From positions 1 through 32,178 of the forward strand of contig VGRJ01000049.1 in the NCBI GenBank assembly GCA_016875405.1: 32,178 nucleotides of DNA, in the 5' to 3' direction. The DNA is from Deltaproteobacteria bacterium. GTDB taxonomy: Bacteria > Myxococcota_A > Polyangia > Polyangiales > Polyangiaceae. Position numbers and translations under genes: made by a program. The notes under the pieces are model-generated. The model was not told where the DNA came from and ran no database searches. It saw only the letters and a program-made list of their open reading frames with translations. Below are positions 1 through 16,185 of the stretch, piece by piece (within the stretch, counting starts at the first letter, position 1; each line of letters begins with the position of its first letter).

Positions 1-1
1 G

Positions 2-193
2 CTGCCGTGGCTTCAGGCGACGGCGATGATGGATGTCTGGGAGCAGTGGAAACCCACCTTCCGAGATGTCGTTCTGCTCGATGGAGACGGCCGCGTCGTC
101 GCGATCTACAACCTATCGGCGAACAACCTGTCGGACCCTGCGAACTACCAGGCGCTGAAGACGCTCTTCCTCGACGCCGCCAACAAGAACTGA
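2..193 (+). CDS. 3' end of a probable redoxin/thioredoxin-like domain protein (truncated by window edge)
   Basis: An open frame enters from the left edge and ends at TGA 191-193, giving 63 residues of a C-terminus. The visible part contains an LPWLQ segment, a predicted strand pair around VLLDGDGRVV, and a final NLSDPANY stretch followed by a short helix. This resembles the last strands and helix of redoxin-like domains found at the end of myxobacterial secreted proteins, where a 'dGdGrvv' hairpin precedes the terminal helix. The catalytic cysteines would lie upstream and cannot be seen, so the family call rests on pattern resemblance only. The gene converges on the lipoprotein at 242-1594, with 48 bases between the stop codons. 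Confidence 0.5.
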   Translation: MPWLQATAMMDVWEQWKPTFRDVVLLDGDGRVVAIYNLSANNLSDPANYQALKTLFLDAANKN

Positions 194-241
194 AGACGGC
201 AGCACCTCTGGCCGGGCGCGCACACCGTACCGGCGCGACGC

Positions 242-1594: not shown

Positions 1595-1643
1595 GCGGCG
1601 CGCATCTTACCGCATCCTCGCGAAAGCGCGCGGGCCAGGATTG

Positions 1644-2528
1644 TCAGGTCGGATCTTGAAGGAGCTCCCGCCAGCTCTCGGTCACGAGCACGCGCTGGGG
1701 AACGGGACAATCGTAGCCGCGCGCGCCGGCGCCGCCGAGCACGAGCCAGGTCCGCTTCGGCAGCGCTTCGCGGACCATCTCAAGGTACGCCTCGATTTCG
1801 CGCGGAGGCGTCGGGATGACGAGCGAGGTGCACACCCAGTCCGGCTTCAGCGTGCGGCCGGTCTTCTGCAGCTCGGACGCGGGGAGGTTTGGCCCCAGGT
1901 AGGTGATGCGCCAGCCGGAGAGCGCGAGGAGCACCGACACGCCGAGCACGCCGAGCTCGTGGAGATCGCCGGGGAACGTCGTGCACACCGCGTGAGGTCC
2001 GGTGCCGCGCGCGCCACCGACCTGCATCAGCATCGCGAGGAAGCGCTCGCGGCAGAACGCGGTCACGAAGTGCTCCTGCGCGATCGAGACGGTGCCACGC
2101 GTCCAGCCCTCGCCGACGTCACGCAGCATCGGGTAATAGAGCTCTTCAATGAGGCGCGCGTAGGGCAGCGTTCCGTAGCGCTGCAGGACGTGATCCGCAC
2201 GCTGCGCGTCGAACTCGAGGAGGGCGGGGAAAAGCTCGCCGCGTGCGCGTTCGATCGAGTCCTGCGCCGCGCTGTTCGCGTTGGCGACGCGGGCCGCCTC
2301 GGGCTGACGACTCGGATCACGGACGAGGTCCACCGCCTCGCTGATCTTGTAGCCCTCCTCGAGAAGTCGCTTGATGCGTTTCAAGAGCGCTACGTCGGAG
2401 TCCGAATAACTGCGATAGCGGTTGCCGTGGCGATCGGGCTCGACGAGGCCGTAGCGGCGCTCCCACGCGATCAACGTGTTCTTCGGGATCCCCGTCAACT
2501 CCGAGACCGTCTTGATGCGATAGCCCAT
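1644..2528 (-). CDS. carH: CarH-type coenzyme B12-dependent light-sensing MerR-family repressor
   Basis: CarH/LitR proteins bind adenosylcobalamin in the dark, form tetramers on promoter DNA and repress carotenoid genes; light breaks the Co-C bond and releases DNA. This 294-residue protein has a MerR winged helix (about 2-70; YRIKTVSELTGIP, then WERRYGL), a helical-bundle domain and a C-terminal cobalamin-binding Rossmann domain. The diagnostic residues are present: W142, nine residues, then E152-H153 (the Wx9EH motif of photosensory CarH), and D188-L-H190-x-x-G193 (lower axial His). The chosen ATG at 2528 follows a GGGGTGGG stretch and gives the usual MerR start; an in-frame GTG at 2543 is possible. 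It lies 18 bases after the crtB stop codon, implying co-transcription and autoregulation. It is the only regulator in the locus. Confidence 0.93.
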   Translation of the reverse strand: MGYRIKTVSELTGIPKNTLIAWERRYGLVEPDRHGNRYRSYSDSDVALLKRIKRLLEEGYKISEAVDLVRDPSRQPEAARVANANSAAQDSIERARGELFPALLEFDAQRADHVLQRYGTLPYARLIEELYYPMLRDVGEGWTRGTVSIAQEHFVTAFCRERFLAMLMQVGGARGTGPHAVCTTFPGDLHELGVLGVSVLLALSGWRITYLGPNLPASELQKTGRTLKPDWVCTSLVIPTPPREIEAYLEMVREALPKRTWLVLGGAGARGYDCPVPQRVLVTESWRELLQDPT

Positions 2529-2546
2529 GACAACCCACCCCACTCA

Positions 2547-3458
2547 TCAGCCAGGCGACGCGCCCGGCAAACCACGAAGGTGACCGTGAAGCGCGACGTC
2601 GTGAGGGCGAGCCCCCGCCCTCGCGAACAGTGACATCATTGCCCAGCGCCCGAAAGATGCCAGGACTCCTTTGCACCGGTCGACGAAGGTCGCGCGCGTG
2701 CGACCGTGCATGGGGTTCGAGCCGAACGATCGACGCAGGCGCACCCCGATCCCCCTGTACAAGCGGCTGGCGACGACGATTGCGAGCCGCGTCCTCGATG
2801 GAATGAACGGCATCCCATCGTCCGCGCTTCGGTAATAGGCGTCTGCGAGGACGAGGAGCTCCTCGACGACGCGCGCGACACGCGCCCCCTCGGCGCGGCC
2901 ATCGAGGACGTCTTCGGCCGTGAGACCAACCTCGGCGAGGCGCGCCGCGGGCAGGTACACGCGCCCGCGAAGAGCGTCCTCGCGGACGTCGCGGCAGATG
3001 TTCGTGAGCTGCATCGCGACGCCGAGGTCGACGGCGTGAGGCAGGGCGCGCGGGTCGCTCACGCCGAGGACGCCGCACATCATCAGGCCGACGCTGCCCG
3101 CGACCTGGTACGAGTAGCGGAGGAGCGCGGCGTCGTCGGCGAGGCGAACCTCACCGAGGTCGGCGCGCATCCCGTCGACGAGGTGGTGGGCCACCGTAGG
3201 GTCAAAGCCGCGACGCGCGGCGACCTCGCGGAAGGCTCGCGCGACGGGGCCGGCTTCGACCGCAGCGAGGCGCTCGGCCGCGTCATCGTTCGACGGCGCC
3301 TCGTCGACCGCGTCGTCGAGCTCGCGGCAGTAAGCGTAGACGAGCGCCGCGTCGTCCCGAGAGTCGGACGGCAAGAACAGGGACGCCACGCGGAAGGACC
3401 GCGCGTGACGTCGCAAGGTCTCGCGACCGTGGAGGACGAGCTCGCTCGAGGTGGTCAT
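2547..3458 (-). CDS. crtB: Phytoene synthase CrtB
   Basis: CrtB condenses two geranylgeranyl diphosphates head-to-head through prephytoene diphosphate to 15-cis-phytoene, the first committed C40 carotenoid step. The 303-residue protein has the usual squalene/phytoene synthase length. It carries both Asp-rich metal-diphosphate motifs: YCRELDDAVDE with DDAVD at 48-52, and NICRDVRED at 153-161 followed by RVYLP at 166-170. The start codon lies in a 4-base ATGA overlap with the crtI stop codon (3455-3458), so translation is probably coupled to crtI. The last ~50 residues are Arg/Ala/Gly-rich and probably not catalytic. Squalene synthase is a theoretical alternative, but the crt context and motif details favour CrtB. 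Confidence 0.96.
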   Translation of the reverse strand: MTTSSELVLHGRETLRRHARSFRVASLFLPSDSRDDAALVYAYCRELDDAVDEAPSNDDAAERLAAVEAGPVARAFREVAARRGFDPTVAHHLVDGMRADLGEVRLADDAALLRYSYQVAGSVGLMMCGVLGVSDPRALPHAVDLGVAMQLTNICRDVREDALRGRVYLPAARLAEVGLTAEDVLDGRAEGARVARVVEELLVLADAYYRSADDGMPFIPSRTRLAIVVASRLYRGIGVRLRRSFGSNPMHGRTRATFVDRCKGVLASFGRWAMMSLFARAGARPHDVALHGHLRGLPGASPG

Positions 3459-5008
3459 TCGGCAGCGTGTTCGGTGGGGGTGTAGGCAGGTCGCGGCGAG
3501 CAGACCGCGCGAGCTTCGGCCTCGGAGCCTCGCGGGACCACGCGCTCGAGGACGCGCGCCGACGAGAGGACTCCGGGCATCCCTGCGCCGGGGTGCGTAC
3601 CCGCGCCCACGAAGTAGAGGCCACCCACGTCTTCCGAGACGTTGTGGTAGCGGAAGTAGGCCGACTGCACGAGCCGCGGCTCGGGCCCGAAGGCCGCGCC
3701 CGAGTAGGACTGCAGCTGCTCCTCGAAGTAGCGCGGATCGACGCTGAAGCAGGTCGTGAGGTTGTCCTTCAAACCAGGGAGGCAGCGCTCGTCGAGGTGG
3801 TTCAGGATCCGATCGAGGTAGCGCGGAGCCTCCTCCTTCCAGTCGAGCCCGCTCTTCTGATTGGGCACCGGCGACAGGACGTAGAAGCTCTCGTGGCCCG
3901 GCGGCGCGAGCGAGGCGTCGGTACGGGTCGGCGCATGAAGGTAGAGCGAGAAGTCATCCGTGAGGACCTTGCGCTCGAAGATGTCGTGCAAGAGCCCCTT
4001 GTAGCGTGGACCGAGCACGATGGTGTGATGCGCGAGGTCGGGGAAGGTCTTCTTCGTGCCGAAATACGCGACGAAGAGGCTCATCGACTGGCGCTTGCGC
4101 GCGACCGAGCGGTCGGTGTGCCGGCTGCGGTCCTTCGGGTCGACGAGCTTCGTGTAGACCGTCGACGGGTCGGCGTTTGCGACCACCATGCTCGCGGCGA
4201 TGCGCTTGCCGTCCTCGGTCTCGACCGCGGTGACGCGTCCGTTCGTGACGGCGAGGCGCGAGACCTTGGTACCGAGCTGGACCTCGACGCCGAGCTCCTC
4301 GAGCAAGCGCACGAGCCCGTTCACGATCGAGCGCGTCCCGCCCATCGCGAAGTGAACACCCCACTTACGCTCGAGCCAGTGGATGAGGAGGTAGATCGCG
4401 GGCGTGTGGAACGGGTTCCCTCCGACGAGCAGCGGCTGGAAGGTGAAGACTTGGCGGAGGCGCTCGTCCTTCAAGTATCGGGACACCAGCGAATAGACGC
4501 TGCGATACGCCGAGAGTCGCGCCATGTCGGGCATGATCCGGAGCATGTCCGACAGGTTCGTGAAGGGCTTGTCGGCGAGCTGGGTGTAGCCGACGTCGAA
4601 GATACGCTGCGAGTGCGCGACCATCTTCCGGTAGCCATCGACGTCGGCCGGACTGAGCCGGCCGATCTGCTCGAGCAGCCGCTCCTCGTCACCGACGTAG
4701 TCGAAGTGCCCGCCCTCGGCGAAGAGCACGCGGTAGAAGGGGTCGACCGGCGTGAGCTCGAAGTAGTCGCGCGAATCGCGACCGACGAGCTCGAAGAGCT
4801 CGTGCAGCAGGTAAGGCGCGGTAACCACGGTCGGCCCCGCGTCGAACGAGTAGCCGTCGCGCTGGAACGAGCGCGCGCGACCGCCGGGCTGATCCCCTGC
4901 GTCGACCACCACGACGCGATGGCCCATCGCGCGCAGACGGACCGCTGCGGCGAGGCCGCCAAGACCGGCGCCGATCACGACGACGGGGTGACTAGATTCA
5001 TTCGACAT
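3455..5008 (-). CDS. crtI: Phytoene desaturase CrtI
   Basis: This FAD-dependent bacterial-type desaturase should convert phytoene to lycopene (or neurosporene) by sequential desaturation and isomerisation at the membrane. At 517 residues it is a typical length. The N-terminal dinucleotide motif GAGLGG is at 13-18, PGGRA at 41-45 and FDAGPT at 55-60. The conserved CrtI C-terminal FAD segment FVGAGTHPGAGMPGVLSSA lies at about 466-484. ATG 5006-5008 is preceded by GAGGAG (5018-5023) with a 9-base spacer, which fixes the start even though it lies inside the 3' end of crtE (34-base overlap). Its stop overlaps the crtB start by 4 bases. The number of desaturation steps cannot be read from sequence. 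A second, more diverged paralogue (crtD) is in the opposite arm. Confidence 0.95.
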   Translation of the reverse strand: MSNESSHPVVVIGAGLGGLAAAVRLRAMGHRVVVVDAGDQPGGRARSFQRDGYSFDAGPTVVTAPYLLHELFELVGRDSRDYFELTPVDPFYRVLFAEGGHFDYVGDEERLLEQIGRLSPADVDGYRKMVAHSQRIFDVGYTQLADKPFTNLSDMLRIMPDMARLSAYRSVYSLVSRYLKDERLRQVFTFQPLLVGGNPFHTPAIYLLIHWLERKWGVHFAMGGTRSIVNGLVRLLEELGVEVQLGTKVSRLAVTNGRVTAVETEDGKRIAASMVVANADPSTVYTKLVDPKDRSRHTDRSVARKRQSMSLFVAYFGTKKTFPDLAHHTIVLGPRYKGLLHDIFERKVLTDDFSLYLHAPTRTDASLAPPGHESFYVLSPVPNQKSGLDWKEEAPRYLDRILNHLDERCLPGLKDNLTTCFSVDPRYFEEQLQSYSGAAFGPEPRLVQSAYFRYHNVSEDVGGLYFVGAGTHPGAGMPGVLSSARVLERVVPRGSEAEARAVCSPRPAYTPTEHAAE

Positions 5009-6117
5009 GGGCGTACGCTCCTCGGGATTTGGTTCGGATCCTCGACGCCGGCCGCGCCGACGGTGAGGTGTGCAATCGGCAGCTGTGCCATGCGGCAGAG
5101 CTGAAGGGCGGTGGCCTGCAGGTCGGGCTCGGCCGCGAGCACGGGCGAGCTGCGGGTCTCGTGCTCGACCGCGGCGATGTGACCGAGCACGTCGGCGAGC
5201 GCGCCGCCGCTGCGCATGCGCTCGACGGCGTCGCGGACGTCGTCGGGCGACGTCGCGTAGCGAGGCGCCGAGAGCAGCGCACGGAGCCAGGTCGTCTCCT
5301 CGGGATGGCGCTCGAGGTGAGCGACGACGAGCGCGCTCACCTTTCCTTCGTACAGGTCGCTCGCCTGCTCCGAGCGCCCCTTGTCACCGTAGAGGTCGAG
5401 CACGTCGTCTTGCATCTGGAAGAGCTCGCCGAGCGGGAAGAAGCACGCGGCGAACGCGGCCGCTTCGTCGACGCTCCGGCCCGCGAGCAGCGCGCTGCCC
5501 TCGACCGCCATCGCGAGGAGCGCGCCCGTCTTTCCGCGGACCGCGCGGAGGTAACGCTGCCACGGCACCTCCTCGAGCGATTTAAGCTGAAGTTCGTAGA
5601 CCTGACCGCGCACGCAGTCGACGGCCGAGCGCGCGAGCACGGTCATGAGGCGCGCCTTCACCGCGGGCTCGCAATCGAGCTCCGCGACCGCGAGGTAAGG
5701 CAGCATCAACAAGAAGTCTCCAGCGTTGATCGCCTGCTCGATGCCGTAGCGCGCCCACACGGTCGCCTTGCCACGGCGGATGGTGTCGCCATCCTGAATG
5801 TCATCGTGCACGAGGGTCGCGTTGTGGAGCAGCTCGACCGCGGCGGCCCAGCCCACGGCGAACGAAGGCTCGGCTCCGAGCGCGCGCCCCGCCTCGAGCG
5901 CGAGCCGGGCGCGGAAGCGCTTGCCGCCGGTGGCGAGGTGCTCGAGCACCATCTCGCGCGTGAGGTCCCCGCTCGCGTCGCCCGTGAGGCGCTCCATCAC
6001 CTCTTCGACGCGCGCGATGAGCTCATCGGCCGACGAGGCGATGACGCGCTCGGAAGAGTCTGGAGCCCGAGGCGTCGACTCGGGGGTCGCTCGAAGCGAA
6101 GGAGAGGACATGCTCAT
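4975..6117 (-). CDS. crtE: Geranylgeranyl diphosphate synthase CrtE
   Basis: This trans-prenyltransferase should elongate FPP/DMAPP with IPP to GGPP, the precursor used by CrtB. The 380-residue protein shows GGKRFR (64-69), the first Asp-rich motif DDIQD (105-109) followed by the second-shell RR, and the second Asp-rich motif DDVLD (237-241) followed by YGDKGR. Small residues (A100, T101) precede the first motif, as expected of enzymes making C20 or longer chains. The start is taken at ATG 6115-6117, which overlaps the crtY stop in an ATGA; a second ATG sits at 6111. A longer open frame continues upstream to 6405 but only shadows crtY. The C-terminus is extended past the usual end by about 30 residues and overlaps crtI by 34 bases. 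A longer-chain polyprenyl synthase is a minor alternative. Confidence 0.92.
   Translation of the reverse strand: MSMSSPSLRATPESTPRAPDSSERVIASSADELIARVEEVMERLTGDASGDLTREMVLEHLATGGKRFRARLALEAGRALGAEPSFAVGWAAAVELLHNATLVHDDIQDGDTIRRGKATVWARYGIEQAINAGDFLLMLPYLAVAELDCEPAVKARLMTVLARSAVDCVRGQVYELQLKSLEEVPWQRYLRAVRGKTGALLAMAVEGSALLAGRSVDEAAAFAACFFPLGELFQMQDDVLDLYGDKGRSEQASDLYEGKVSALVVAHLERHPEETTWLRALLSAPRYATSPDDVRDAVERMRSGGALADVLGHIAAVEHETRSSPVLAAEPDLQATALQLCRMAQLPIAHLTVGAAGVEDPNQIPRSVRPCRMNLVTPSS
5018..5023 (-). promoter_or_regulatory. Shine-Dalgarno of crtI inside crtE
   Basis: GAGGAG on the minus strand, 9 bases before the crtI ATG. It lies inside the crtE coding sequence and supports independent initiation of crtI despite the 34-base gene overlap. 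Confidence 0.7.
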
Positions 6118-7352
6118 GCGAAACCTCCAAGACGAGTAGCGCGCCAGAGCTCGGCTCGTCCGGAGCCGACGCCGTGCCACAGAAGACGCCACTGCGTCGC
6201 GAGCGGCGCACCACAGAACAGGCGGCCCATGATCGCGGCGAGCTCGGTCGGGCTCGCGGTCGCGTCGAGGTAGCGCTGCCAGTCGCGCTCCTCGAGCGCG
6301 AAGAAGGACTCGAAGAAGAGGCGGGTGCGCTCGAGATCGAACGAGCAGAGGGCCGCCATCCCGAAGCGGTAGAGCGACCAGAGCCGCGCGCGCTCCGCGG
6401 GCCACACCGCCTCCCAGCCGAGCCGCCTCGCCTCGCTCGGGCCACCGCTCTCGAGGCCATCGTGGATGGCACGCGCGACCGAGGGCGCGAGCTTCAACGC
6501 GCTCGCGAGCTGATAGCCCGTCGCCGGGTGGACCATCGCCGCTGCGGCGCCGAACCCGAGGAGAGGCTGCTCCTTCGACGGGAGCCCGAGGCCCATGGGG
6601 ATGACGCAGCGCTCCTCCTCGTGCACCCGAACGACGTCGATCCGCATCGCGCGGAGCCGCTCATGGAGGCGCGCCCGCAGCGCGTCGATCGGCATCGCGG
6701 GCTTCTGCACGAGCGCCGTCTCCTCGAGGAAGACGTGCCGATCGTCGAGCGGGAGCGAGTAAAGGAAAGACGGCGCAGCGTGGGGCTCGCCGTTCGGGTC
6801 ATGGCGAAAATCCATGAACGACATCTCCCCCGGGGCGTAGGGATGCTCCGCGACCTCGGCCACGATGCCGTAGGCGGTCTGGTGAGCATCCACCGTCTCG
6901 CCCGAGCGAGCGAGGTGCCGAGTCGAGGCTCCGGACGCGTCGACGGCGAGCGCAGCGGCGACGGTGATCGCCGCGTCGGTGCGGAGGCGGCTCTCGACCT
7001 CACCATGCTCGATCGCGTCGACGCGCGCATCGACGAAGCGAACTCCGGCCTGCTCGGCGCGAGCGACGAGCGCTCGATGAAGGCGGAAGGTGCTGAGCCG
7101 CAAGTACGCGCGCGGTAGCGCGAAGCCCGCTTCGTCATGCAGCCAGACCTTGGGAGAGGCGTAGCGTCCGGCGACTGCGTCCTCGGGCACGAGCGACGCC
7201 TGGTGCGACCACAGGCCGAAGTTCTGCGACCACGCGCGCCACGGTGAGGGGGCGACGCACACGACGTCGAGGCCCCGCTCGGCGCAGGCCGCGGCGAGCG
7301 CGAGGCCAGCGGGACCGCTGCCAAGCACGGCGACTTCGCTCCTCACCAACAT
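6114..7352 (-). CDS. crtY: Lycopene cyclase, CrtL/CrtY flavoprotein family
   Basis: This is predicted to cyclise one or both psi ends of lycopene (to gamma- or beta-carotene) in a non-redox reaction that needs reduced FAD. The 412-residue protein has GSGPAG at 11-16, MDFR at 180-183, FLEET at 208-212 (the catalytic Glu motif of CrtL/LCY enzymes) and a C-terminal GFGAAAAMVHPATGYQ segment at about 267-281. These place it in the plant/cyanobacterial CrtL-CrtY superfamily, unlike the heterodimeric CrtYc/CrtYd cyclase of Myxococcus xanthus. ATG 7350-7352 has GGGAG (7362-7366) with a 9-base spacer. The open frame continues far upstream to 8612, but that part is antisense to crtC and is not credible. 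It is the first gene of the minus-strand crt operon, and its stop overlaps the crtE start (ATGA). Mono- versus bicyclase activity cannot be decided from sequence. Confidence 0.9.
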   Translation of the reverse strand: MLVRSEVAVLGSGPAGLALAAACAERGLDVVCVAPSPWRAWSQNFGLWSHQASLVPEDAVAGRYASPKVWLHDEAGFALPRAYLRLSTFRLHRALVARAEQAGVRFVDARVDAIEHGEVESRLRTDAAITVAAALAVDASGASTRHLARSGETVDAHQTAYGIVAEVAEHPYAPGEMSFMDFRHDPNGEPHAAPSFLYSLPLDDRHVFLEETALVQKPAMPIDALRARLHERLRAMRIDVVRVHEEERCVIPMGLGLPSKEQPLLGFGAAAAMVHPATGYQLASALKLAPSVARAIHDGLESGGPSEARRLGWEAVWPAERARLWSLYRFGMAALCSFDLERTRLFFESFFALEERDWQRYLDATASPTELAAIMGRLFCGAPLATQWRLLWHGVGSGRAELWRATRLGGFA

Positions 7353-7361
7353 TCGACCGGA

Positions 7362-7366
7362 CTCCC
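7362..7366 (-). promoter_or_regulatory. Shine-Dalgarno of crtY
   Basis: GGGAG on the minus strand, 9 bases before ATG 7352. It fixes the crtY start against the long upstream open frame. Confidence 0.6.
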
Positions 7367-7383
7367 AACCATGTTCAAACCTG

Positions 7384-7412
7384 TTGCATTGTGTAGCGCA
7401 AGCACGTAGTGT
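7384..7412 (+). promoter_or_regulatory. Possible crtC-operon promoter (-35 TTGCAT, -10 TAGTGT)
   Basis: TTGCAT at 7384-7389 and TAGTGT at 7407-7412 are separated by 17 bases. The -35 half overlaps the left inverted-repeat arm. Transcription would start near 7419 and give a leader of about 39 bases to the chosen crtC GTG. The match to the sigma-70 consensus is weak, so this is only a candidate. Confidence 0.35.
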
Positions 7413-7418
7413 TTGCAA
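7390..7418 (-). promoter_or_regulatory. Possible crtY-operon promoter (-35 TTGCAA, -10 TACACA)
   Basis: Reading the minus strand, TTGCAA (7418-7413), 17 bases, then TACACA (7395-7390). It mirrors the plus-strand candidate, with its -35 in the right inverted-repeat arm. Transcription would begin near 7383, about 31 bases before the crtY ATG. The consensus match is weak and the call rests mainly on symmetry and position. Confidence 0.35.
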
Positions 7419-7457
7419 CAGGTTTGCGTGACGTTTCGGGAGAGGATCGAAAAAACC

Positions 7458-8558
7458 GTGGGAATCCTGAACAGCTGTACGCGCAATGAGTTCCCTAGCA
7501 AGGTCGATCTCGACGCGGGCGGAGGCTTTGCGTGGTGGTACTGCGACCTCATCGACGCAAACGGCGACGGCGTCGTCCTGATCTGGTTCTTCGGCCTGCC
7601 CTTCCTCCCCGGCTACGAGGGGCGCCGCGAGCGACCTGCGGCTCACCCGGGACTCAACCTCGCGGTCTACCGAGGCGGAGAGCCGAGCTTCTATCTCCTC
7701 GAGGAGCAACCTCAGGCCTCGTACGCCCTCGAGGGCTCGGCCTGGCGCTGGCGCTTCGGAGACTCGACCCTGACGATGCGCTTCGAGGGAGACGAGGTGC
7801 TGCTCGACGGCGAGCTGTCGTTGACGGTTCCGGGCGCGGCAGCCCCGACGCTCGCGACGCTGTCCGTCCGTGGCCTCGCGAGTCGCGTGCGCCCGACCCA
7901 AGGCGACTCGCGCCACGTGTGGTGCCCGATCGCGCCGAGCGCCGAGGGGCGCGTCGAGGTGCTCACGAGCGACGGGGAGCGCTGGAGTCAGGAAGGCCGC
8001 GCCTACCTCGACGCGAACACGAGCCTCGTCCCGCTCTCCGACCTCGATCTCGCCGCGTGGCGCTGGGGTCGCCTCGCCTTCCCGGACCGAGAGGTCGTCT
8101 TCTACGAGGTGACGCGCGCCGAGGATGGCTCGGTGGAGCCGCTCGTGCTCGACATCCCACGCGGCGGCGAGGAGCGGCGCGCGGGTCGAGCGCTCGAGTG
8201 GGGCCGGGCACGTCGGAGCGTCTACGGACTCTCGTGCCCAGACGGCGCGACCCTCGTCGATCCGCTCGGACGGCGGATCGAGGTCCGCGTGCGACACCTC
8301 GTCGAAGATGGCCCGTTTTACCTGCGCTTCACGCTCGAGGCGACCTGCCTGGAGACGGGCGAGCGCGCGCAGGGCTTCGGCGAGCACGTCGAGGTCTCGC
8401 GGCTCGACGTGCCGTGGCAGCGCCCCTTCGTGCGCATGCGGCGGAGGCTCGCCTCGGGCGACAACTCGATGTGGCTGCCGCTCTTCTCGGGTCCGCGGCG
8501 CGGACGGGTGGGGCGGCTCGTACGCCACTGGCTCGGCAGGAGTGAGGCCGCGACATGA
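7458..8558 (+). CDS. crtC: Carotenoid 1,2-hydratase CrtC (hydroxyneurosporene synthase family)
   Basis: CrtC adds water across the 1,2 double bond of an acyclic psi end, giving the tertiary hydroxyl that can later be glycosylated. The predicted 366-residue protein shows the family's N-terminal WWYCDL at 26-31, a hydrophobic LIWFFGLPF strand after it, and many beta-strand-like alternating segments consistent with the lipocalin-like CrtC fold. The length is within the family range. The start is uncertain: GTG 7458 follows GGGAGAGG (7438-7445, 12-base spacer) and lies after the presumed promoter. A TTG at 7413 would fall inside the operator arm. This is the first gene of the plus-strand operon. 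Its stop overlaps the glycosyltransferase start (ATGA), so the hydroxyl-forming and sugar-adding steps are translationally coupled. Confidence 0.85.
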   Translation: MGILNSCTRNEFPSKVDLDAGGGFAWWYCDLIDANGDGVVLIWFFGLPFLPGYEGRRERPAAHPGLNLAVYRGGEPSFYLLEEQPQASYALEGSAWRWRFGDSTLTMRFEGDEVLLDGELSLTVPGAAAPTLATLSVRGLASRVRPTQGDSRHVWCPIAPSAEGRVEVLTSDGERWSQEGRAYLDANTSLVPLSDLDLAAWRWGRLAFPDREVVFYEVTRAEDGSVEPLVLDIPRGGEERRAGRALEWGRARRSVYGLSCPDGATLVDPLGRRIEVRVRHLVEDGPFYLRFTLEATCLETGERAQGFGEHVEVSRLDVPWQRPFVRMRRRLASGDNSMWLPLFSGPRRGRVGRLVRHWLGRSEAAT

Positions 8559-9703
8559 ATGCCCTGCCCTTGCTCGTCGCGGGGCCCGCCGGGCTTCCGC
8601 TGCTCTTGACACTTGTCAACCTTTTTACCTGGCAGCGCGGCACGGTCAGCGGGGGCGACGGCGCGCGCGTCAGCGTACTCATCCCGGCGCGAAACGAGGA
8701 GCGTACGATCGAGGCCTGCGTACGAGCGGCGCTCGCCGATCGCACCAACGTGGAGGAGGTCGTCGTGTACAACGATCAGTCGACCGACGCGACCGGCGAC
8801 ATCGTGCGCGCGCTCGCCGCCGAGGATCGGCGCGTCCGCCTCGTGAAGGGTGCGCCGCTCCCAGCCGGCTGGGTCGGCAAGCCCCACGCGTGCCACCGCC
8901 TCGCGGCCGAAGCGCGGGGTGACGTGCTCTTCTTCGTCGACTCCGACACCGTGCTCGCGCCCGACGGCGTCGCTCGAGCCCTCTCGCTGTTGCGCCCGAA
9001 GGCGGGACCGCGCGCCGCGGCGGTGACGGCCGTGCCGCGGCAGGATGTCGGCTCGCTGTTCGAGCGGATGATCGTCCCGCTGCTCATCCTCACCTACACG
9101 AGCTGGTTCCCGCTGCGCCTCGTCGCGGCGAGCCGTGACCCGCGCTTTCTCGCAGCGAACGGCCAGCTCCTCGCCGTCGAGCGTGATGCCTACGACGCGG
9201 TCGGGGGCTTCGAGAGCGTGCGCAACGAGCTCGTCGACGACATGGCGTTCTGTCGCCGACTGAAGGAGCGCGGTCATCGCCTCGTGTTCGCCGATGGATT
9301 CCACATCGCGCGGTGCCGCATGTACGAGGGCGCGCGTCAGGTGTGGGAAGGCTTCTCCAAGAACCTGTACGAAGGCATCGGTGGGACGCCGCTCGCGCTC
9401 GCGGCGGTCGTGTTGCTGCACGCGGCGTGCTTTCTCGTCCCGTACGTCGCGTGCGCGGTGGGCCTTCTCCGCGGAGACGCGGAGCTCACCTCGTGGGGTG
9501 GACTCGGCGTCGCCATGAACGTGGCGCTTCGGACGCTCCTCGTGCTGCGATTCGCACAGCCGCCGAGCGCCATCGTGACGCACCCCGCGTCGATCGTCGG
9601 GCTGCTCGGCATCGCCGTGAACTCCCTGCGCTGGTCGAGCGCAAACCGCCTCCGCTGGCGCGGGCGCGTGTATCAAGCGCGCAAGGAGCGCCTCGCCTCA
9701 TGA
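8555..9703 (+). CDS. GT2-family carotenoid glycosyltransferase, CruC/CrtQ-like
   Basis: This is predicted to transfer a sugar from a nucleotide sugar to the carotenoid hydroxyl at the membrane. The 382-residue protein has an N-terminal membrane helix (about 3-25), then the GT-A/GT2 landmarks IPARNEE (43-49), NDQSTDAT (73-80) and DSD at 129-131 (metal/nucleotide-sugar site). NGQLLAV, VDDMAFCRRL and QVWEGFSKN, typical of processive-like GT2 acceptor motifs, follow. Two or more C-terminal membrane helices and a terminal RWRGRVY segment, seen in CruC/CrtQ-type enzymes, complete it. ATGA overlaps link it to crtC upstream and to the acyltransferase downstream. CruC of green sulfur bacteria, which makes chlorobactene glucoside, is the closest functional model I can name. 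The sugar identity is not readable from sequence. Confidence 0.85.
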   Translation: MNALPLLVAGPAGLPLLLTLVNLFTWQRGTVSGGDGARVSVLIPARNEERTIEACVRAALADRTNVEEVVVYNDQSTDATGDIVRALAAEDRRVRLVKGAPLPAGWVGKPHACHRLAAEARGDVLFFVDSDTVLAPDGVARALSLLRPKAGPRAAAVTAVPRQDVGSLFERMIVPLLILTYTSWFPLRLVAASRDPRFLAANGQLLAVERDAYDAVGGFESVRNELVDDMAFCRRLKERGHRLVFADGFHIARCRMYEGARQVWEGFSKNLYEGIGGTPLALAAVVLLHAACFLVPYVACAVGLLRGDAELTSWGGLGVAMNVALRTLLVLRFAQPPSAIVTHPASIVGLLGIAVNSLRWSSANRLRWRGRVYQARKERLAS

Positions 9704-10482
9704 CGCCAGCTCACGACGTCGTCCGCGTGACGCGACGCCCTCGGTTCCTGTGGCTCGCGCGCCGCTACGTTCGGTCGCGCATGCGGAGCGCCTTCGACGG
9801 CGTCTTCGCGCGCGGCCTTTCACGAATCCGAGCCCTCGCCGAGCGCGGCCCGCTCATCCTCGCCGCAAACCACGTCGCCTGGTGGGATCCGCTCTTCGCG
9901 GTCCTGCTCGACGAAGCGCTCGGTACGACCGGCTACGCGCTGATGGACGCGCCGAACCTGGGTCGCTTGCCGTTCTTCGGGTGGGTCGGCGCGATCCCGA
10001 TCGTTCGGGACGACGCCCGGCGCGCGCTCGCGCAGCTGCGTGCGTCGGCACGCCTCCTCTCGGGCCCGGCGACGGCGCTGTGGATCTTCCCGCAAGGGAC
10101 GCAGCGGCCCGCTCACCTGAGGCCGCTCGGCGTCAAGAGCGGCGTCGTGCGGCTCGCCGTCGAAGCCCGCGCTCCGGTGGTGCCGCTCGCCCTGAATTAC
10201 CTCTTCCGTCAGACCTCCGAGCCGAGCGCGATCGCGTCGTTCGGGGCACCGCTCGATGCAGAGGAGCTCGGCCGCCGCGGCCTCCTCGACGCGCTTGAGC
10301 GCTCGCTCGCCGAAGAGCTCGCCGCGATCGACGTGTTCGCGACCGAGGGGCGAAAAGACTTCGACACCTTGATCGCGTCACGTCGCTCGGGGGACACGCC
10401 AGGAGCGGCGAGGCTCCTCGCGACGGCGGCGCTTCGACGGACGGACGACGGCGCGACGCGCGCCTCTGGAGGCAGCGCATGA
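9700..10482 (+). CDS. PlsC-family acyltransferase, probably acylates the carotenoid glycoside (CruD-like)
   Basis: This 260-residue lysophospholipid-acyltransferase-fold protein has the catalytic NHVAWWD motif with His58 and Asp63 (HX4D). IPIV follows at about 99-102, and FPQGTQRP at 130-137 takes the place of the usual FPEGT motif, Gln replacing Glu. It lacks a clear signal peptide; a hydrophobic stretch follows Pro51. It is linked by ATGA overlaps to the glycosyltransferase before it and crtD after it. By context it should esterify the carotenoid sugar with a fatty acid, as CruD does for chlorobactene glucoside. A housekeeping 1-acylglycerol-3-phosphate acyltransferase is the alternative, but the tight crt setting argues against it. 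The start is fixed by the overlap at 9700; a longer open frame upstream lies within the glycosyltransferase gene. Confidence 0.82.
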   Translation: MTPAHDVVRVTRRPRFLWLARRYVRSRMRSAFDGVFARGLSRIRALAERGPLILAANHVAWWDPLFAVLLDEALGTTGYALMDAPNLGRLPFFGWVGAIPIVRDDARRALAQLRASARLLSGPATALWIFPQGTQRPAHLRPLGVKSGVVRLAVEARAPVVPLALNYLFRQTSEPSAIASFGAPLDAEELGRRGLLDALERSLAEELAAIDVFATEGRKDFDTLIASRRSGDTPGAARLLATAALRRTDDGATRASGGSA

Positions 10483-11939
10483 CGAGCGCGGTGGTGGTCG
10501 GTGCAGGGATAGGTGGGCTCAGCGCGGCGATCTCGCTCGCGTGTTCGGGGGTGTCCGTGACCGTCGTCGAGGCGTCCGAGCGAGCGGGCGGCAAGGCCGA
10601 CACGGTCGAGCTCGAGGGAGTCGCCGTCGACACCGGGCCGAGCGTGCTCACCATGCCCGACGTGTTCGATGAGCTCTTCCGCGCAGCAGGGACGAGCCTC
10701 GCGGCCGAGGTCACCTTGACGCGGCCCGAGCCAGCCTTCCGCTACGTGTACCCCGACGGCGTGAAGCTCGACGTGTTCCACGAGCTCGAGGCCACGGTCG
10801 AGAGCGTGCGCGCGACGCTCGGGGCCGAGGCGGCGCGCGACTTCTCGGCGTTCCTCGCCTACTCCGAGGTCATCTGGACGACGGCGTCGCCCGAGTTCGT
10901 CTACGGGCCGAGCCCGACGCTCGGACAGCTCGTCATGAAGGGGCCCCGCGCGCTCGCCGCGATGACCAAGATCGACGGCCTCTCGCGGATGCTCGGCGCC
11001 ATCGAGCGACGCGTCCGCTCGTCGCACTTGCGCTGGCTATTCGCGCGCTACGCGACCTACAACGGCTCCGATCCGCGCGTCGCCCCCGCGACCCTCAACT
11101 GCATCGCGCACGTCGAGCTTGGCCTCGGGGGCTTCGGAATCAAGGGCGGCATGCACGAGCTCGTCCGCGCGCTCGTTCGCGCGGCCGAGAGGCGTGGGGT
11201 GACCTTCCGCTTAGGCGAGCCGGTGCGCGAGGTGGTGTTCGCCGGCAAGCGCATCGCGGGGGTGCGCACGGACAGCGGCACGCTCGAGGCCGACCTCGTC
11301 GTCGCCAACGCCGAGGCCGCACACCTCTACCGCGACCTCGCCCCGACGCTCCGCGGGGGTCCGTCCGACGAGCCGCCGAGCACCTCGGGGTGGAACGCCA
11401 TCGTTCGGTCTCGCGCGAGCGAGGCCCGCGCCGCGCACACCGTGCTCTTCCCCGACGACTACCTAGACGAGTTCCGCGACATGTTCGATCGCAAGGTCGC
11501 GCCGAGGTCGCCCACCGTGTACCTGTGCGACCAAGCGCGCTGCCACGAGGTCTCCGGCTGGTCCGGCGACGTGCCCGTGTTCGTGATGGCGAACGCACCG
11601 GCGCTCGGCCGCGACGACGAGGAGCGCCCCGAGGAGTGGGCGGCGCTCGCCCGTGAGGTGCTGGGCCGCGCGCAGCGTAGCGGCCTCCTGCAAACCGACG
11701 CGAAGGTGCTGTGGCAGCGCACCCCGGCCGACCTCGCGCGACGCTTCCCAAGGAGCCGCGGGAGCCTCTACGGCGCCGCGTCGAACAGCTCGATGGCCGC
11801 CTTCAAGCGACCGTCGAACCGCGTTCGCGAGGGCCTGTACCTCGCGAGCGGGAGTGCCCATCCCGGCGGCGGCCTGCCGCTCGCCGCGCTCTCCGGCCGC
11901 GCCGCCGCGCGCGCAGCACTCGAGGATCGACGCGCATGA
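10479..11939 (+). CDS. crtD: CrtD-type carotenoid 3,4-desaturase (CrtI superfamily)
   Basis: This 486-residue FAD-dependent CrtI-family desaturase has GAGIGG at 8-13, AGGKAD near 41-46 and VDTGPSV near 50-57. It ends with the variant C-terminal segment GLYLASGSAHPGGGLPLAALSG (about 452-473), which is the CrtD-like form rather than the GTHPGAG form of the crtI product in the other arm. CrtD enzymes introduce the 3,4 double bond into 1-hydroxy carotenoids made by CrtC, extending conjugation and red-shifting the pigment. Its position immediately after crtC, the glycosyltransferase and the acyltransferase, with ATGA overlaps at both ends, agrees. A second phytoene desaturase acting in series with CrtI, as the two CrtI enzymes of Myxococcus do, is the main alternative. 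Confidence 0.82.
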   Translation: MTSAVVVGAGIGGLSAAISLACSGVSVTVVEASERAGGKADTVELEGVAVDTGPSVLTMPDVFDELFRAAGTSLAAEVTLTRPEPAFRYVYPDGVKLDVFHELEATVESVRATLGAEAARDFSAFLAYSEVIWTTASPEFVYGPSPTLGQLVMKGPRALAAMTKIDGLSRMLGAIERRVRSSHLRWLFARYATYNGSDPRVAPATLNCIAHVELGLGGFGIKGGMHELVRALVRAAERRGVTFRLGEPVREVVFAGKRIAGVRTDSGTLEADLVVANAEAAHLYRDLAPTLRGGPSDEPPSTSGWNAIVRSRASEARAAHTVLFPDDYLDEFRDMFDRKVAPRSPTVYLCDQARCHEVSGWSGDVPVFVMANAPALGRDDEERPEEWAALAREVLGRAQRSGLLQTDAKVLWQRTPADLARRFPRSRGSLYGAASNSSMAAFKRPSNRVREGLYLASGSAHPGGGLPLAALSGRAAARAALEDRRA

Positions 11940-12706
11940 ACATACCGAGCCGATCGATGAGCCCCCTCGCGCGAGCCCTCTCGCTCGCGCTCGCGACGCT
12001 TCCCCTCGCACCCGCCTCGGTCGCGAGGGCCGAGACCGGACCGCTCGCGGGGCGCTGGGCGTTCCTTCAGGTGACGACGAGCGCCGCCGAGATCCCCGTC
12101 ATCGGAAAGGTGTACGCGACCACCAGCGCGGTCTCGATTCACAAGCTGAAGCACAAGGGCAACCGCCTGCGCGGGAAGGGCCGCATCTGCCGCATCGATC
12201 TCGACAGCGGCAGCCCTCTCGTCAAGACCGCGATGCCCGAGGCGCTCCTCGCGTCGCTGCCGGCGCCGCGCATCGACGCTCAGGTCCAGGAGGACGGCGG
12301 AGCGTGGCGCTTCTCGCAAGCCAGGCAGACGATCGTGCTCGGCGCGAAGCTCGACGCGCCGACCACCGACGCGCTCCCGCGGCTCCTCGGCGACCCGCGC
12401 ATCATCGATCAGGACGGTGACGGCGCGCCCGCCGTGACGATCCGAGTGAGCGGGATCGTGAGCGGCGAGCTGCGCGTCGTGCAACGCAGCTGGACCGAGC
12501 TCTCGGGTCGCGGCGCGAGCTCCGAGCGGATCGAGGGGAGCCTTGCGTTCGGGACCGAGCAGGTGATCCTCGACGCGACCTCGTCGATGTTGAAGACGGC
12601 ACCGCCTCAAGCGCCCGAGCCCTCGCGGAGCTACTTTCGGCTGGTGAAGCTCTCGAAGGGCGCGAGCTGCAGCGATGCCCTCGCCGCGACTCGGGAGCGT
12701 CGATGA
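11936..12706 (+). CDS. Exported protein of unknown function embedded in the crt operon
   Basis: I do not recognise a named family. The 256-residue product begins with a signal peptide (hydrophobic stretch after MSPLARAL, cleavage likely after ASVARA near residue 32), so it should be periplasmic or secreted. The mature part is predicted beta-rich, has an acidic DQDGDG segment resembling a calcium-binding DxDxDG loop, and has few Cys. ATGA overlaps couple it upstream to crtD (11936-11939) and downstream to crtU (12703-12706), so it cannot be separated from pigment synthesis. Possible roles, all inferred, are pigment binding, export to the outer membrane or assembly of the glycolipid carotenoid. 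An alternative start at 11957 gives a tidier signal peptide, but the overlap favours 11936. Confidence 0.8.
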   Translation: MNIPSRSMSPLARALSLALATLPLAPASVARAETGPLAGRWAFLQVTTSAAEIPVIGKVYATTSAVSIHKLKHKGNRLRGKGRICRIDLDSGSPLVKTAMPEALLASLPAPRIDAQVQEDGGAWRFSQARQTIVLGAKLDAPTTDALPRLLGDPRIIDQDGDGAPAVTIRVSGIVSGELRVVQRSWTELSGRGASSERIEGSLAFGTEQVILDATSSMLKTAPPQAPEPSRSYFRLVKLSKGASCSDALAATRERR

Positions 12707-14373
12707 ACCCACTGCTCGCGCTCTCGCTCGTCCTCGTCGTAGGGGCCCTGGCGCGGATGGTGCTCGTCGGGCGACACCCTCGTCCCGAGCGACGTACGCT
12801 TGTCGGCGCGCTCGTCGGTCGAGCCGTCGAGCGCCGACTCGGTGGTTACCGCCAGCGCCTCGACGAGGGCGGAGAGGGCTTGCCCAAGCGCCTCGAGGCA
12901 GAGCGCACGGTGCTCGTCGTCGGCAGCGGGATAGCTGGGCTCACGGCCGCAACGACGCTCGCGGAGCGCGGCTTCGCGGTGACCCTTCGCGAGCGAAACC
13001 CCTACCTCGGCGGCAAGATCGGCGCGTGGCGGGAGCGCTCGTCCGACGGCACCGAGCTCGAGGTCGAGCATGGGTTTCACGCCTTCTTTCGGCACTACTA
13101 CAACCTCGACGAGGTGCTCGGGCGCGTCGGAGTGCGGCCGACGTTCAAGGCGATCGACGACTACCTGATCGTCACGCGCGGTGACGAGCGGCTCTCCTTC
13201 GACGACCGCGTGCGAACGCCGCTCCTCAACTTGCTCGATCTCTGGTCGAAGGGCTTCTTTCGGCTGAGCGACATCGTGCTCACGCGGGCGCGTGACCAGA
13301 TGGGCGTCTTTCTCGAGTACGATCCCGAGAAGACCTTCGCGACGTACGACCAAACGAGCTTCGACGACTTCGCTGAAAACGCCGGGCTTCCACCCAAGCT
13401 GCGCGTCGTGTTCAACACGTTCTCGCGTGCCTTCTTCAGCGAGGGCGACAGCCTGAGCGTCGCGGAGCTCGTGAAGAGCTTCCACTTCTACTACCTGTCG
13501 AACGACGCAGGCCTGCTCTACGACTACCCAATTGACGACTATCAAGTTGCCATCCTCGCACCGTGGCGCGCCTACCTCGAGGCTCACGGCGTCGCGATCG
13601 AGCTCGGGCGCGCGGCTGGCGCCATCGGCCCTACGAAGGACGGGTTCGAGGTCGACGGCGTGCGATACGACGCGATGGTCCTCGCGACCGACGTCGCCGG
13701 GACGCGGCGCCTCATCGCCTCGTCACCGGAGCTCGCCGAGCGATACCCCGACCTCGCGCGCGCCCTCGCCGGGGTCCAGTCCTCGCAGCGCTACGCGGTT
13801 TGGCGCGTGTGGCTCGATCGCACCGTACGCGACGATGTTCCGGTCTTCGTCAACACCGAGCGCGAGGTCCTGCTCGACTCGGTGTCGATGTACCACCGCA
13901 TCACGCCGTCGGCTCGCTCCTGGGCGGACGCGAACGGCGGCTCGGTCGTCGAGCTCCACAGCTACGCGGTGCCCGAGCGACTCACCGACGAGGCCGCCGT
14001 CAAGGCCGCGCTGCGCGCTGAGCTTGACCGCTATTTCCCCGAGCTCAAGGGGGCGCGGCTCGTTCACGAAGCCTTCCAGCTGAAGGACGATTTCACAGCA
14101 TTTCATCGAGGTCTTCACTCAGGGAGGCCCACGACCGAGACCGCGGTGCCAGGCCTCGTCCTCGCGGGCGACTGGGTACGGCTCCCCTGCCCGGCGATGC
14201 TCATGGAGGCCGCCGCGACGAGCGGCCTCCTCGCCGCGAACCGCCTGCTCGCGCGCGAGGGGCTGCGACCCGAACCCGTCTACACCGTGCCGCGGCGCGG
14301 CCTGCTTCCGTTTCGGGAGCGCCCGCTCCCGGGCGAGGTCCGGGCGACGCCCGTCCTCGAGACGGCGAGCTGA
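12703..14373 (+). CDS. crtU: Carotene desaturase/methyltransferase CrtU (aromatic-ring-forming)
   Basis: CrtU converts a beta-ionone ring to an aromatic phi- or chi-type ring by desaturation with methyl migration. This 556-residue FAD protein starts with a membrane-anchoring helix (about 3-22) and carries GSGIAG at 74-79. It then shows EHGFHAFFRHYYN at 122-134, a hallmark of the CrtU/CruE branch of the amine-oxidase/CrtI superfamily. Later segments LLDSVSMYHRI and GGSVVELHSYAVPE also fit CrtU. It is coupled by ATGA to the unknown exported protein and is followed 21 bases later by the IgGFc-like lipoprotein gene. It implies that the CrtY-made ring becomes aromatic, as in chlorobactene or isorenieratene. 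Phi versus chi product cannot be told here. Zeta-carotene desaturase and CrtO ketolase are less likely because of the HGFHAFFRHYYN motif. Confidence 0.87.
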   Translation: MNPLLALSLVLVVGALARMVLVGRHPRPERRTLVGALVGRAVERRLGGYRQRLDEGGEGLPKRLEAERTVLVVGSGIAGLTAATTLAERGFAVTLRERNPYLGGKIGAWRERSSDGTELEVEHGFHAFFRHYYNLDEVLGRVGVRPTFKAIDDYLIVTRGDERLSFDDRVRTPLLNLLDLWSKGFFRLSDIVLTRARDQMGVFLEYDPEKTFATYDQTSFDDFAENAGLPPKLRVVFNTFSRAFFSEGDSLSVAELVKSFHFYYLSNDAGLLYDYPIDDYQVAILAPWRAYLEAHGVAIELGRAAGAIGPTKDGFEVDGVRYDAMVLATDVAGTRRLIASSPELAERYPDLARALAGVQSSQRYAVWRVWLDRTVRDDVPVFVNTEREVLLDSVSMYHRITPSARSWADANGGSVVELHSYAVPERLTDEAAVKAALRAELDRYFPELKGARLVHEAFQLKDDFTAFHRGLHSGRPTTETAVPGLVLAGDWVRLPCPAMLMEAAATSGLLAANRLLAREGLRPEPVYTVPRRGLLPFRERPLPGEVRATPVLETAS

Positions 14374-14394: not shown

Positions 14395-16185
14395 GTGACA
14401 CTCCACGGCCTCGGCGCTACGCAGCGGCGCATGCTTCCTCGACGTCTCGCCCTCGCGGTCTCCTCCCTTGCGCTCGCCGGAGCGCTCGCCCCCGCCTGCT
14501 CGGCGACCGACAGGACGAGCGGCTCGACGGCGAGCGGTCCCGCGACGAGCGGCAGCGGTGGCAGCGGCGGCAACCTCACCGTCGGCGCAGGAGGCGGTAG
14601 CGGCTGCGACGGCACGACGCTGTGCGTCGGTGACGTCGTTCACCAGTGCGTCAATGGACAGCCCGGCGCGGTGATCGAGTCGTGCGACACGGCGAGCGGG
14701 CAGGTCTGCAGCGAGGGCGCGTGCAAGGACGCCTGCGCCGTCGCCAAGGACGCTCCCTCGAACCTCGGGTGCGAGTTCTGGGCGGTCGATCTGCCGAACG
14801 AGCGCGGCTTCAACAGCGCGGCAAACCTGCCCTGGGGCATCGTGCTGTCGAACGCCAGCGACGCGAAGGCGACGATCACGTTCGAGCGAAACGACGCTGC
14901 CGTCGGGGCGCCGCCTCAGCTCTCGACGGTCCAGAAGGTGGAGCTCGGACCGGGGCAGCTCTTCGCGCTGAACATGCCGTCTGCCGAGGTCAATGGGCTC
15001 ACCCCGTCGACGCTCGATCCGCCGGGGCCTCCCGGCACCTGGCACTCGACCAATGTGTTCCGGATCCGCGCGACCTCACCGATCGTCGCCTATCAGTTCA
15101 ACGTCTTTACCAACAGCTTCTCGAACGACGCATCGCTGCTCTTACCCACGAACGGCCTCGGTACGACCTACCGCGTCATCGGCTACCCGACAGCCAACCC
15201 GATCGCGCCCATCCCGATCACGGGCGTGCCCGATCGCTCGCACGTCACCGTCGTCGGGGTCTCGCCCGACACCGAGGTCACGGTCGTCGCGGGGACCACC
15301 ACCGCCGGTGACGGCATGAAGCTTCCGCCGCTTCAGAAGGGCGAGTCGATGAAGGTGACGCTCGGCGCCTTCGAGGTGCTGAACCTCGCGTCCACGGGGA
15401 TCCCGGGGGACATGACCGGCACCGTGATCGGCTCGACGAAGCCCGTCGCCGTCTTCACGAGCCTCGAGCGCGGCATCGCCCCGGCCGTCACCGACCCGCC
15501 GAAGCCGCCCGACTGGGATATGAACTCCTCGACCTGCTGCACCGATCACCTGGAGGAGCAGCTCTTCCCGGCGAGCTCGCTCGGCAAGAATTTCGTGGTG
15601 ACGCGGAGCCCCGTCCGCTCGACGGGGAGCTACAAGGAGCCCGACGAGCTGCGCTTCCTCGGCGTCGCTGAGCCCGCACAGGTGAAGACGTCGCTGCCTC
15701 CACCGCTCGACTCGTTCACGCTCCAGCCGGGGCAGGTGGTCGACACGTTCACCTACGGCGACATCACCGTCGAGTCGTCCGCGCCCATCACGATCGCGCA
15801 GATCCAGCTGAGCGCCGGCTTCACGACGACCTACATCGGCGACCCGTCGCTCACGATCTTTCCGCCGATCGAGCAGTACCGCGACACGTACCTGTTCCTC
15901 ATCCCAGCCTCGTGGACGAAGAACTACGTCGTGCTCGGGGGACCCAAGGGCGGCGAGTACGTCCTCGATGGACAGCCCCTCACCGGCTGCACAATCGCCT
16001 CGATCGGCGCGCTCAAAGGCACCGAGTACGAATCGCTCGTGTGCCCCGTCGCCGAGGGCGTTCATCGGATCCAGGCCAAGGCCCCCTTCGGCCTGACGGT
16101 CTACGGATACGGCAACGTCGGCTCGTACGCGTACAGCGGTGGCGCCGACGTCGAGCCGATCTACGAGGTCCCGCCGATCTACTGA
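14395..16185 (+). CDS. IgGFc-binding-like surface lipoprotein
   Basis: This 596-residue predicted lipoprotein has a basic n-region, a hydrophobic core and the lipobox LAPAC with Cys35. A Ser/Gly/Thr linker (about 36-70) and a Cys-rich segment with eight Cys (about 71-114) follow. The large beta-rich domain starts at CEFWAVDLPN (126-135) and contains repeated hydrophobic strands such as PIVAYQFNVF and KPVAVFTSLERG. This matches the IgGFc-binding N-terminal-type domain common in myxobacterial cell-surface proteins. In bacteria its ligand is unknown, and the name does not imply IgG binding. GTG 14395 has a strong GGAGG. It begins 21 bases after crtU, so it may be co-transcribed with the plus-strand crt operon, mirroring the lipoprotein that ends the minus-strand arm. 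Confidence 0.82.
   Translation: MTLHGLGATQRRMLPRRLALAVSSLALAGALAPACSATDRTSGSTASGPATSGSGGSGGNLTVGAGGGSGCDGTTLCVGDVVHQCVNGQPGAVIESCDTASGQVCSEGACKDACAVAKDAPSNLGCEFWAVDLPNERGFNSAANLPWGIVLSNASDAKATITFERNDAAVGAPPQLSTVQKVELGPGQLFALNMPSAEVNGLTPSTLDPPGPPGTWHSTNVFRIRATSPIVAYQFNVFTNSFSNDASLLLPTNGLGTTYRVIGYPTANPIAPIPITGVPDRSHVTVVGVSPDTEVTVVAGTTTAGDGMKLPPLQKGESMKVTLGAFEVLNLASTGIPGDMTGTVIGSTKPVAVFTSLERGIAPAVTDPPKPPDWDMNSSTCCTDHLEEQLFPASSLGKNFVVTRSPVRSTGSYKEPDELRFLGVAEPAQVKTSLPPPLDSFTLQPGQVVDTFTYGDITVESSAPITIAQIQLSAGFTTTYIGDPSLTIFPPIEQYRDTYLFLIPASWTKNYVVLGGPKGGEYVLDGQPLTGCTIASIGALKGTEYESLVCPVAEGVHRIQAKAPFGLTVYGYGNVGSYAYSGGADVEPIYEVPPIY

Follow-up and report, generated by a model that had tools for sequence, protein, structure and literature searches.

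An exported protein of an unnamed family recurs behind crtD in carotenoid gene clusters of a myxobacterial phylum and may handle modified carotenoid outside the inner membrane

We analyzed a stretch of 32,178 nucleotides from a bacterium of the Polyangiaceae (GenBank contig VGRJ01000049.1; the whole stretch is called the window) and, within it, the gene X, which lies between a crtD-like and a crtU-like gene of a carotenoid (crt) operon and is predicted to encode an exported protein. The results are best explained if X is exported, serves a hydrophobic ligand, and is specialised for modified carotenoid; we give a probability of about one half to its handling of this carotenoid beyond the inner membrane, with a carrier function as the most likely form. 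To our knowledge, little is known about how carotenoids move from the inner to the outer membrane in bacteria, and few proteins have been implicated. A literature search, limited in that most subscription papers lay outside it, revealed no protein for this step in the phylum studied here. An exported protein encoded behind crtD in eight family-level groups, whose relatives adjoin genes for FadL-type channels and light regulators, provides a concrete gene and protein for the question of carotenoid transport.

Linkage of X to carotenoid genes

Because selection of loci by X itself was to be avoided, the sample was based on crtD and consisted of the 30 genes closest to the window crtD in 377 genomes of the phylum, its own included. 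Thirteen of the 30 are followed on the same strand, at most 1.5 kb away, by a member of the X family. Among crtD loci with downstream DNA, the proportion was 13/29, or 12/28 without the window; one locus shows a single downstream base. The contig of genome G168 ends within crtD. The 13 crtD-X loci span eight family-level groups (f1, f38, f42, f46, f50, f51, f66, and f70), and simple arithmetic places the count expected by chance far below one even at three family members per 5,000-gene genome. The recurrence of crtD-X in eight groups, together with an overlap of X and crtU at five of six loci, is more than chance.

In the window, X overlaps both neighbors by the four bases ATGA: crtD ends at 11939 and X starts at 11936, and X ends at 12706 and crtU starts at 12703. 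An earlier reading, made from the window alone without database searches (the sequence-only reading), had placed X between crtD and crtU by such overlaps, and both junctions were confirmed. The coupling that it noted on both sides of X is present but not special to this gene, since all four junctions in the series glycosyltransferase (GT), acyltransferase (AT), crtD, X, and crtU overlap by four bases (GT/AT 9700/9703; AT/crtD 10479/10482).

Within the order, X was found among crt genes in its own genome and in G158, G159, G082, G083, G114, G057, and G131. In six of these eight genomes crtD stands directly before X (window, L032, L033, L035, L038, and L040), and crtD and X overlap at three loci (window, L033, and L040); the contig of G159 begins inside X. 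The four-base overlap of X and crtU, ATGA or GTGA, was observed in the window, L032, L033, L034, and L039, that is, at five of the six loci with both genes on the same strand, and L035 shows a gap of one base. At L040 crtU is on the opposite strand, and at L038 no crtU follows X. In G083 (L034:10065-10519), GT, AT, X, and crtU are present, but the 450 bases that separate AT from X do not contain crtD. The G083 genome gave no crtD match at E<=1e-60, and this absence reflects either a real loss or an assembly fault.

Elsewhere in the phylum, the observed gene orders were GT-crtD-X (L185), GT-crtD-fatty acid desaturase-like-X (L189 and L192), crtC-like-crtD-X (L207 and L209, crtC-like by eye), and GT-crtD-hydrolase-X (L217). 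By group, f46 has GT-crtD-desaturase-X, f38 has crtD-X or GT-crtD-hydrolase-X, and f66 has GT-crtD-X. In L185, L207, L209, and L217, which belong to other families, X comes after crtD and no crtU was found in the vicinity. Across these loci crtD is the commonest partner of X, while crtU, GT, and AT come and go. We also considered crtU as the main partner, as the crtU co-occurrence looked for in the sequence-only reading would have it. Twelve crtU-like loci (L121-L132, >=45% identity) showed no X in the stretches fetched, and the candidate was rejected.

The X protein and its family

The X gene and its predicted features are as follows.

11936..12706, + strand: X, exported protein, member of an unnamed family; ATG start, 256 amino acids plus stop.
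11936..12031, + strand: predicted type I signal peptide of X, residues 1-32, from sequence and hydropathy; probable cleavage after ARA; no lipobox.
12188..12190, + strand: Cys85, invariant in 26 aligned members; probable disulphide with Cys245.
12407..12433, + strand: loop DQDGDGAPA, residues 158-166; D158, D160, D162, and P165 invariant in 26 members.
12668..12670, + strand: Cys245, invariant in 26 aligned members.

Hydropathy of the N-terminus (best 12-residue mean 1.92, cleavage site A-R-A/E) indicated a type I signal peptide, in agreement with the sequence-only reading. A lipobox regular expression found no Cys at the end of the signal peptide of the window X; it was positive in one of eight crt-linked rows (L040, where the Cys lies within the hydrophobic stretch) and in 50/73 non-crt members, and some of the negatives looked lipoprotein-like by eye.

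Across the 26-member alignment, M1, C85, G136, L147, P148, D158, D160, D162, P165, G177, and C245 were invariant, and no His, Ser, Glu, or Lys was. The window X fits its family in the two Cys residues, the DxDxD..P loop, and the homology of the mature domain; position 166 is Ala in the window X and Gly almost without exception in its relatives. The DxDxDG-like loop pointed out in the sequence-only reading is thus real, and it is probably a calcium loop. Judged from the alignment, the invariant residues appear to be structural and probably metal-binding, and the set does not resemble a typical catalytic one.

X matched nothing better than chance in Pfam, NCBIfam, and PDB sequences, and family members and profiles, including the 26 relatives, gave no match of weight in the same collections. 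A clear match to an unrelated enzyme family, which the sequence-only reading had named as evidence against its proposal, was therefore not seen. No EF-hand or dockerin profile of Pfam matched X or occurred among the families of the 26 relatives; the likeness is in the letters DxDxDG only. AlphaFold models of X were unusable, both with one relative (L002; pLDDT 41, pTM 0.40) and alone (pLDDT 37, pTM 0.24). A Foldseek search with the first of them returned outer-membrane barrels and retinol- or fatty-acid-binding proteins among others, with a best E of 0.06, and was given no weight. A plasmid-borne origin of X was unsupported, with no match in 72,556 plasmid records, and among viral contigs 47 stretches matched a pattern and none encoded a relative.

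The X family is unnamed and, by sequence searches, large in this phylum. Single-sequence searches found relatives in 44/183 genomes of the order and 85/317 genomes of the class (own genome included in both), and a profile of the window clade found them in 94/377 genomes of the phylum at E<=1e-25. A single-sequence scan of genome contigs for X returned one locus only. Besides X, the own genome carries a single further member, a distant one on contig C43, which has a lipoprotein-like start and no FadL-like gene in the 16 kb covered.

A tree built from 64 members placed the window X in a clade of 13 rows (support 100/96), of which 10 are crt-linked. This clade comprises members of f1, f7, and f66 and extends to a genome outside the class. 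The other crt-linked members (f42/f50/f51/f70; f38; f46) lay outside it in a quick tree. The crt-linked X genes are lineages inside a wider family, and their spread over the tree means that the link to crt genes is either old and often lost or has arisen several times. Members with E above 1e-40 were excluded from the first tree (48 rows); L002, L055, L044, L053, and L043 were excluded from the second and 23 more rows, either near copies or distant members, from the third. L087 was fetched, gave no family match, and was dropped.

G082 and G083 each have a second X copy of the same clade (L036 and L037; 47% to the window X) with no crt gene in view. In G133 (L041:690-2727), an X-like gene lies directly behind a sulphotransferase gene (PF13469), away from crt genes and not behind the weak crtD of that genome (L149). 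Two X family genes stand in tandem in G366 (L203:8780-10288).

The genomic contexts of family members were counted by six-frame searches, because simple gene calling took wrong strands in the GC-rich loci L036, L037, and L141; an earlier count with called genes had placed 28/48 members beside FadL. In the class set of 81 members, 40 of the 70 outside the window clade lay within 500 bp of a FadL/TodX-type outer-membrane gene, which was upstream on the same strand in 27 of the 40. By comparison, 33 loci without X (372 kb) contained two FadL-like genes. The PF03349 cut-off was passed by 4/12 FadL-type neighbors scanned (4/9 in one batch and 0/3 in others), and nine neighbors without a PF03349 match or not scanned were homologous to the PF03349-passing L061 protein (phmmer, 1e-32 to 1e-43). 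At L200:8517-11488, a FadL-type gene, an X gene with a lipoprotein-like start, and a gene for a Blc-type lipocalin (PF08212, 6.5e-46) run in the same direction.

A CarH/LitR-like regulator gene was found within 6 kb of 9/123 members, three of which also have FadL. The four regulators scanned (L187, L193, L202, and L218) all had MerR and B12-binding domains, and the other five were assigned by similarity. In f38 genomes, X members L187, L188, L191, and L197 adjoin such a gene, with an epimerase gene near, and photolyase-like genes are near X in L187 and L188. In L193 the regulator gene is near X and crtI and crtB are a few kb away, and in L202 the regulator and crtB are near X. In L218, L220, and L221 the regulator gene is followed by a FadL-type gene and then by X, whose start resembles that of a lipoprotein; the genes on the opposite strand there look like molybdenum hydroxylase by eye.

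In total, the 123 members in 120 loci comprised 18 with crt genes, 55 with FadL within 1.5 kb, 9 with a regulator within 6 kb, and 46 with none of the three. The respective counts for crt, FadL, and regulator were 8, 43, and 0 in the class set and 10, 12, and 9 in the phylum set of 42 members. For a crt context, we required matches to at least two crt queries within 6 kb, or to crtU or crtB by itself; L090, whose single match was crtI-like, did not count. The phylum set (L185-L224) consists of the 40 best-scoring places not fetched before, chosen by likeness to the window clade, and so leans towards the crt clade, which the crtD-based count does not.

Proposed role of X and alternative explanations

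The proposed role follows the order of the operon. The CrtC-like enzyme, CrtD, GT, and AT would make a hydroxylated, desaturated, glycosylated, and acylated carotenoid. X, as a soluble exported protein of one probably mostly-beta domain with a putative Cys85-Cys245 disulphide and a metal loop that may bind calcium, would take over the completed carotenoid with its modified tail at the periplasmic face of the inner membrane and hold it or carry it through the periplasm, presumably toward the outer membrane. X would stem from a family whose members in other lineages are frequently predicted to be lipoprotein-anchored and often lie beside FadL-type genes. The sequence-only reading proposed that such a protein could bind the carotenoid or move it to the outer membrane, and this idea is supported in part. 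Relatives beside FadL-type transporters of hydrophobic compounds fit an X that binds or moves a hydrophobic product. This part of the argument is carried over from cousins, because the crt clade has no FadL neighbor.

Several observations weigh against this role. Within the window clade, FadL was found within 500 bp in 0/11 members (0/8 crt-linked and 0/3 others), and a PF03349 protein of the own genome (C122) found none of 13 neighbor proteins by phmmer. The sequence-only reading regarded X as a conserved partner of crt genes. Recurrence behind crtD agrees with this, but crtD is a commoner neighbor than crtU and 16/29 crtD loci with downstream DNA have no adjoining X, for example G177 and G179; G182 has GT-AT-crtD and no X. 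These loci suggest that X is dispensable for the step or that another factor can take its place. G083 keeps X and crtU where crtD is missing, and members of the window clade occur without crt genes in view, as in the second copies of G082 and G083 and the gene behind the sulphotransferase in G133. Homologues scattered away from crt genes, which the sequence-only reading held would count against it, were found in part: 105/123 members had no crt gene found within 6 kb, and the remaining members did. The 46/123 members in none of the three contexts, some of them on short contigs, point the same way. The low pLDDT values (41 and 37) and the Foldseek result lend no support to a fold or ligand, and a catalytic role of the three invariant Asp is conceivable.

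A static protein of the periplasm or outer membrane that holds carotenoid or lipid as a photoprotective or antioxidant store is unlikely, although it shares the genomic contexts of the carrier and would suit the type I signal without anchor of the window X. Members with a CarH/LitR-like regulator, and with photolyase-like genes in L187 and L188, are also consistent with it. However, the FadL pairing in much of the wider family favors transport over storage.

The regulator clusters in which no crt gene was found (L187, L188, L191, and L197), together with the 105 members lacking a crt gene within 6 kb, would also suit an envelope stress protein that shares light regulation with crt genes and makes no contact with carotenoid. 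We consider this quite improbable, because shared regulation would not call for so close an arrangement as the position directly after crtD in eight groups, with gene overlaps in the window, L033, and L040.

X could instead bind protein rather than pigment, as an accessory factor of the late enzymes that stabilises a glycosyl or acyl transfer complex from the periplasm. The tight ATGA coupling inside an enzyme operon, the place directly behind crtD in many lineages, and the persistence of X with GT, AT, and crtU in G083 are in line with such a factor. It is nevertheless rather poorly favored: relatives adjoin FadL or a light regulator at places where these enzymes were not found, and GT and AT are inconstant, with crtD-X and no GT found in the stretch at L207 and L209. 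A so far unrecognised enzymatic activity of X on the end group of the carotenoid, for which the slot beside tailoring enzymes and the three Asp could be cited, is very improbable in view of the signal peptide, the lack of a family match, the lack of invariant His, Ser, Glu, or Lys, and the fact that most members examined had no carotenoid gene found nearby.

The carrier role was also compared with known systems. AupA is FadL-like. In Marinobacter, the jointly encoded pair AupA-AupB is described as combining an outer-membrane protein with another protein of the envelope, for a hydrophobic compound (PMC5989066). X relatives likewise adjoin FadL-type genes. By description only, AupB differs in being an inner-membrane protein, whereas X relatives are lipoproteins or have a plain signal peptide, and crt-linked members of the window clade lack an adjoining FadL gene. 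The sterol proteins BstA, BstB, and BstC of Methylococcus are described as members of known transporter families with two crystal structures and measured sterol binding (PMC10942540). X would resemble them as a periplasmic part for carotenoid, but unlike them it matches no family.

The lipocalin fold is an eight-stranded beta-barrel, and X is longer than lipocalins. A figure legend shows a putative lpc with crt, phr, and epi genes, and a CrtR-controlled putative lipoprotein, cg0726, appears in the same source (PMC5401885); a lipocalin is described in a light-induced crt cluster of Chryseobacterium (PMC7064467). X is similar to these in being small and exported, in belonging to a regulated carotenoid cluster, and in a G-x-W motif (G-R-W) near the mature N-terminus. 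However, X gave no match to the lipocalin families PF00061 and PF08212 at E<=1, and neither was among the matches of the 26 relatives. An hhalign comparison of the X profile with one Blc-type lipocalin aligned 19 columns around G-x-W only, at 2% probability, and X has the DxDxD loop. By the tests run, X does not appear to be a lipocalin.

As a wider and tentative extension of the carrier role, which we regard as possible but doubtful, the X family may represent a novel type of envelope carrier, serving carotenoids and comparable oily compounds that protect from light. FadL and X would then form a light-controlled outer-membrane traffic, as in L218, L220, and L221, and the X of crt operons would have become a free periplasmic shuttle that delivers modified carotenoid to the outer membrane.

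The carotenoid cluster of the window

The other genes of the cluster are listed below.

1644..2543, - strand: regulator with MerR and B12-binding domains, CarH/LitR type, by domain scan.
2547..3458, - strand: crtB phytoene synthase; NCBIfam scores below curated cut-offs.
3455..5008, - strand: crtI-like phytoene desaturase; FAD amine oxidase fold.
4975..6117, - strand: crtE-like polyprenyl synthase, by domain scan.
6114..7340, - strand: lycopene cyclase, by family match.
7341..8612, - strand: probable CrtC-like carotenoid 1,2-hydratase; no direct family match, 29.5% to a gene of L147.
8555..9703, + strand: family 2 glycosyltransferase (GT), CruG/HpnB-like; below the curated cut-offs of CruG and HpnB.
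9700..10482, + strand: acyltransferase (AT), PF01553.
10479..11939, + strand: crtD-like 1-hydroxycarotenoid 3,4-desaturase; NF045637 at E 1.6e-118, below the curated cut-off, and above the cut-off of the broader crtI family TIGR02734.
12703..14373, + strand: crtU-like FAD oxidoreductase; FAD oxidoreductase only in databases.

We take 12703..14373 to be crtU from the sequence-only reading and general knowledge, and 3455..5008 is presumably crtI from its position. The L147 gene related to 7341..8612 matches NF045922 at 9.6e-15, below the cut-off. The claim that X is the only non-enzyme of the cluster did not hold, given the CarH-type regulator at 1644-2543, through which the cluster may be under light control. 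CarH adjoining carotenoid genes is described as usual across Myxococcales (PMC9304148). The relative L002, from a Myxococcales assembly, and the gene order seen here suggest that the window belongs near this group.

The lycopene cyclase and the CrtC-like hydratase region lie in a single open frame of 832 amino acids (6114-8612, - strand), and in G158 they are separate, consecutive matches. Contig C60 of the same assembly (L183, G000:C60:1-9122) aligns to window positions 1-9114 across 9.2 kb at 76.8% DNA identity and ends within the glycosyltransferase; it is either another crt locus of the genome or DNA from a contaminating close relative. A DUF3370 protein (242-1594) adjoins the CarH-type gene. 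Behind the crt operon, 14395-16185 encodes an IgGFc-binding-like protein (PF17517), and a 66% relative of this protein is encoded 3.3 kb behind crtU in G159.
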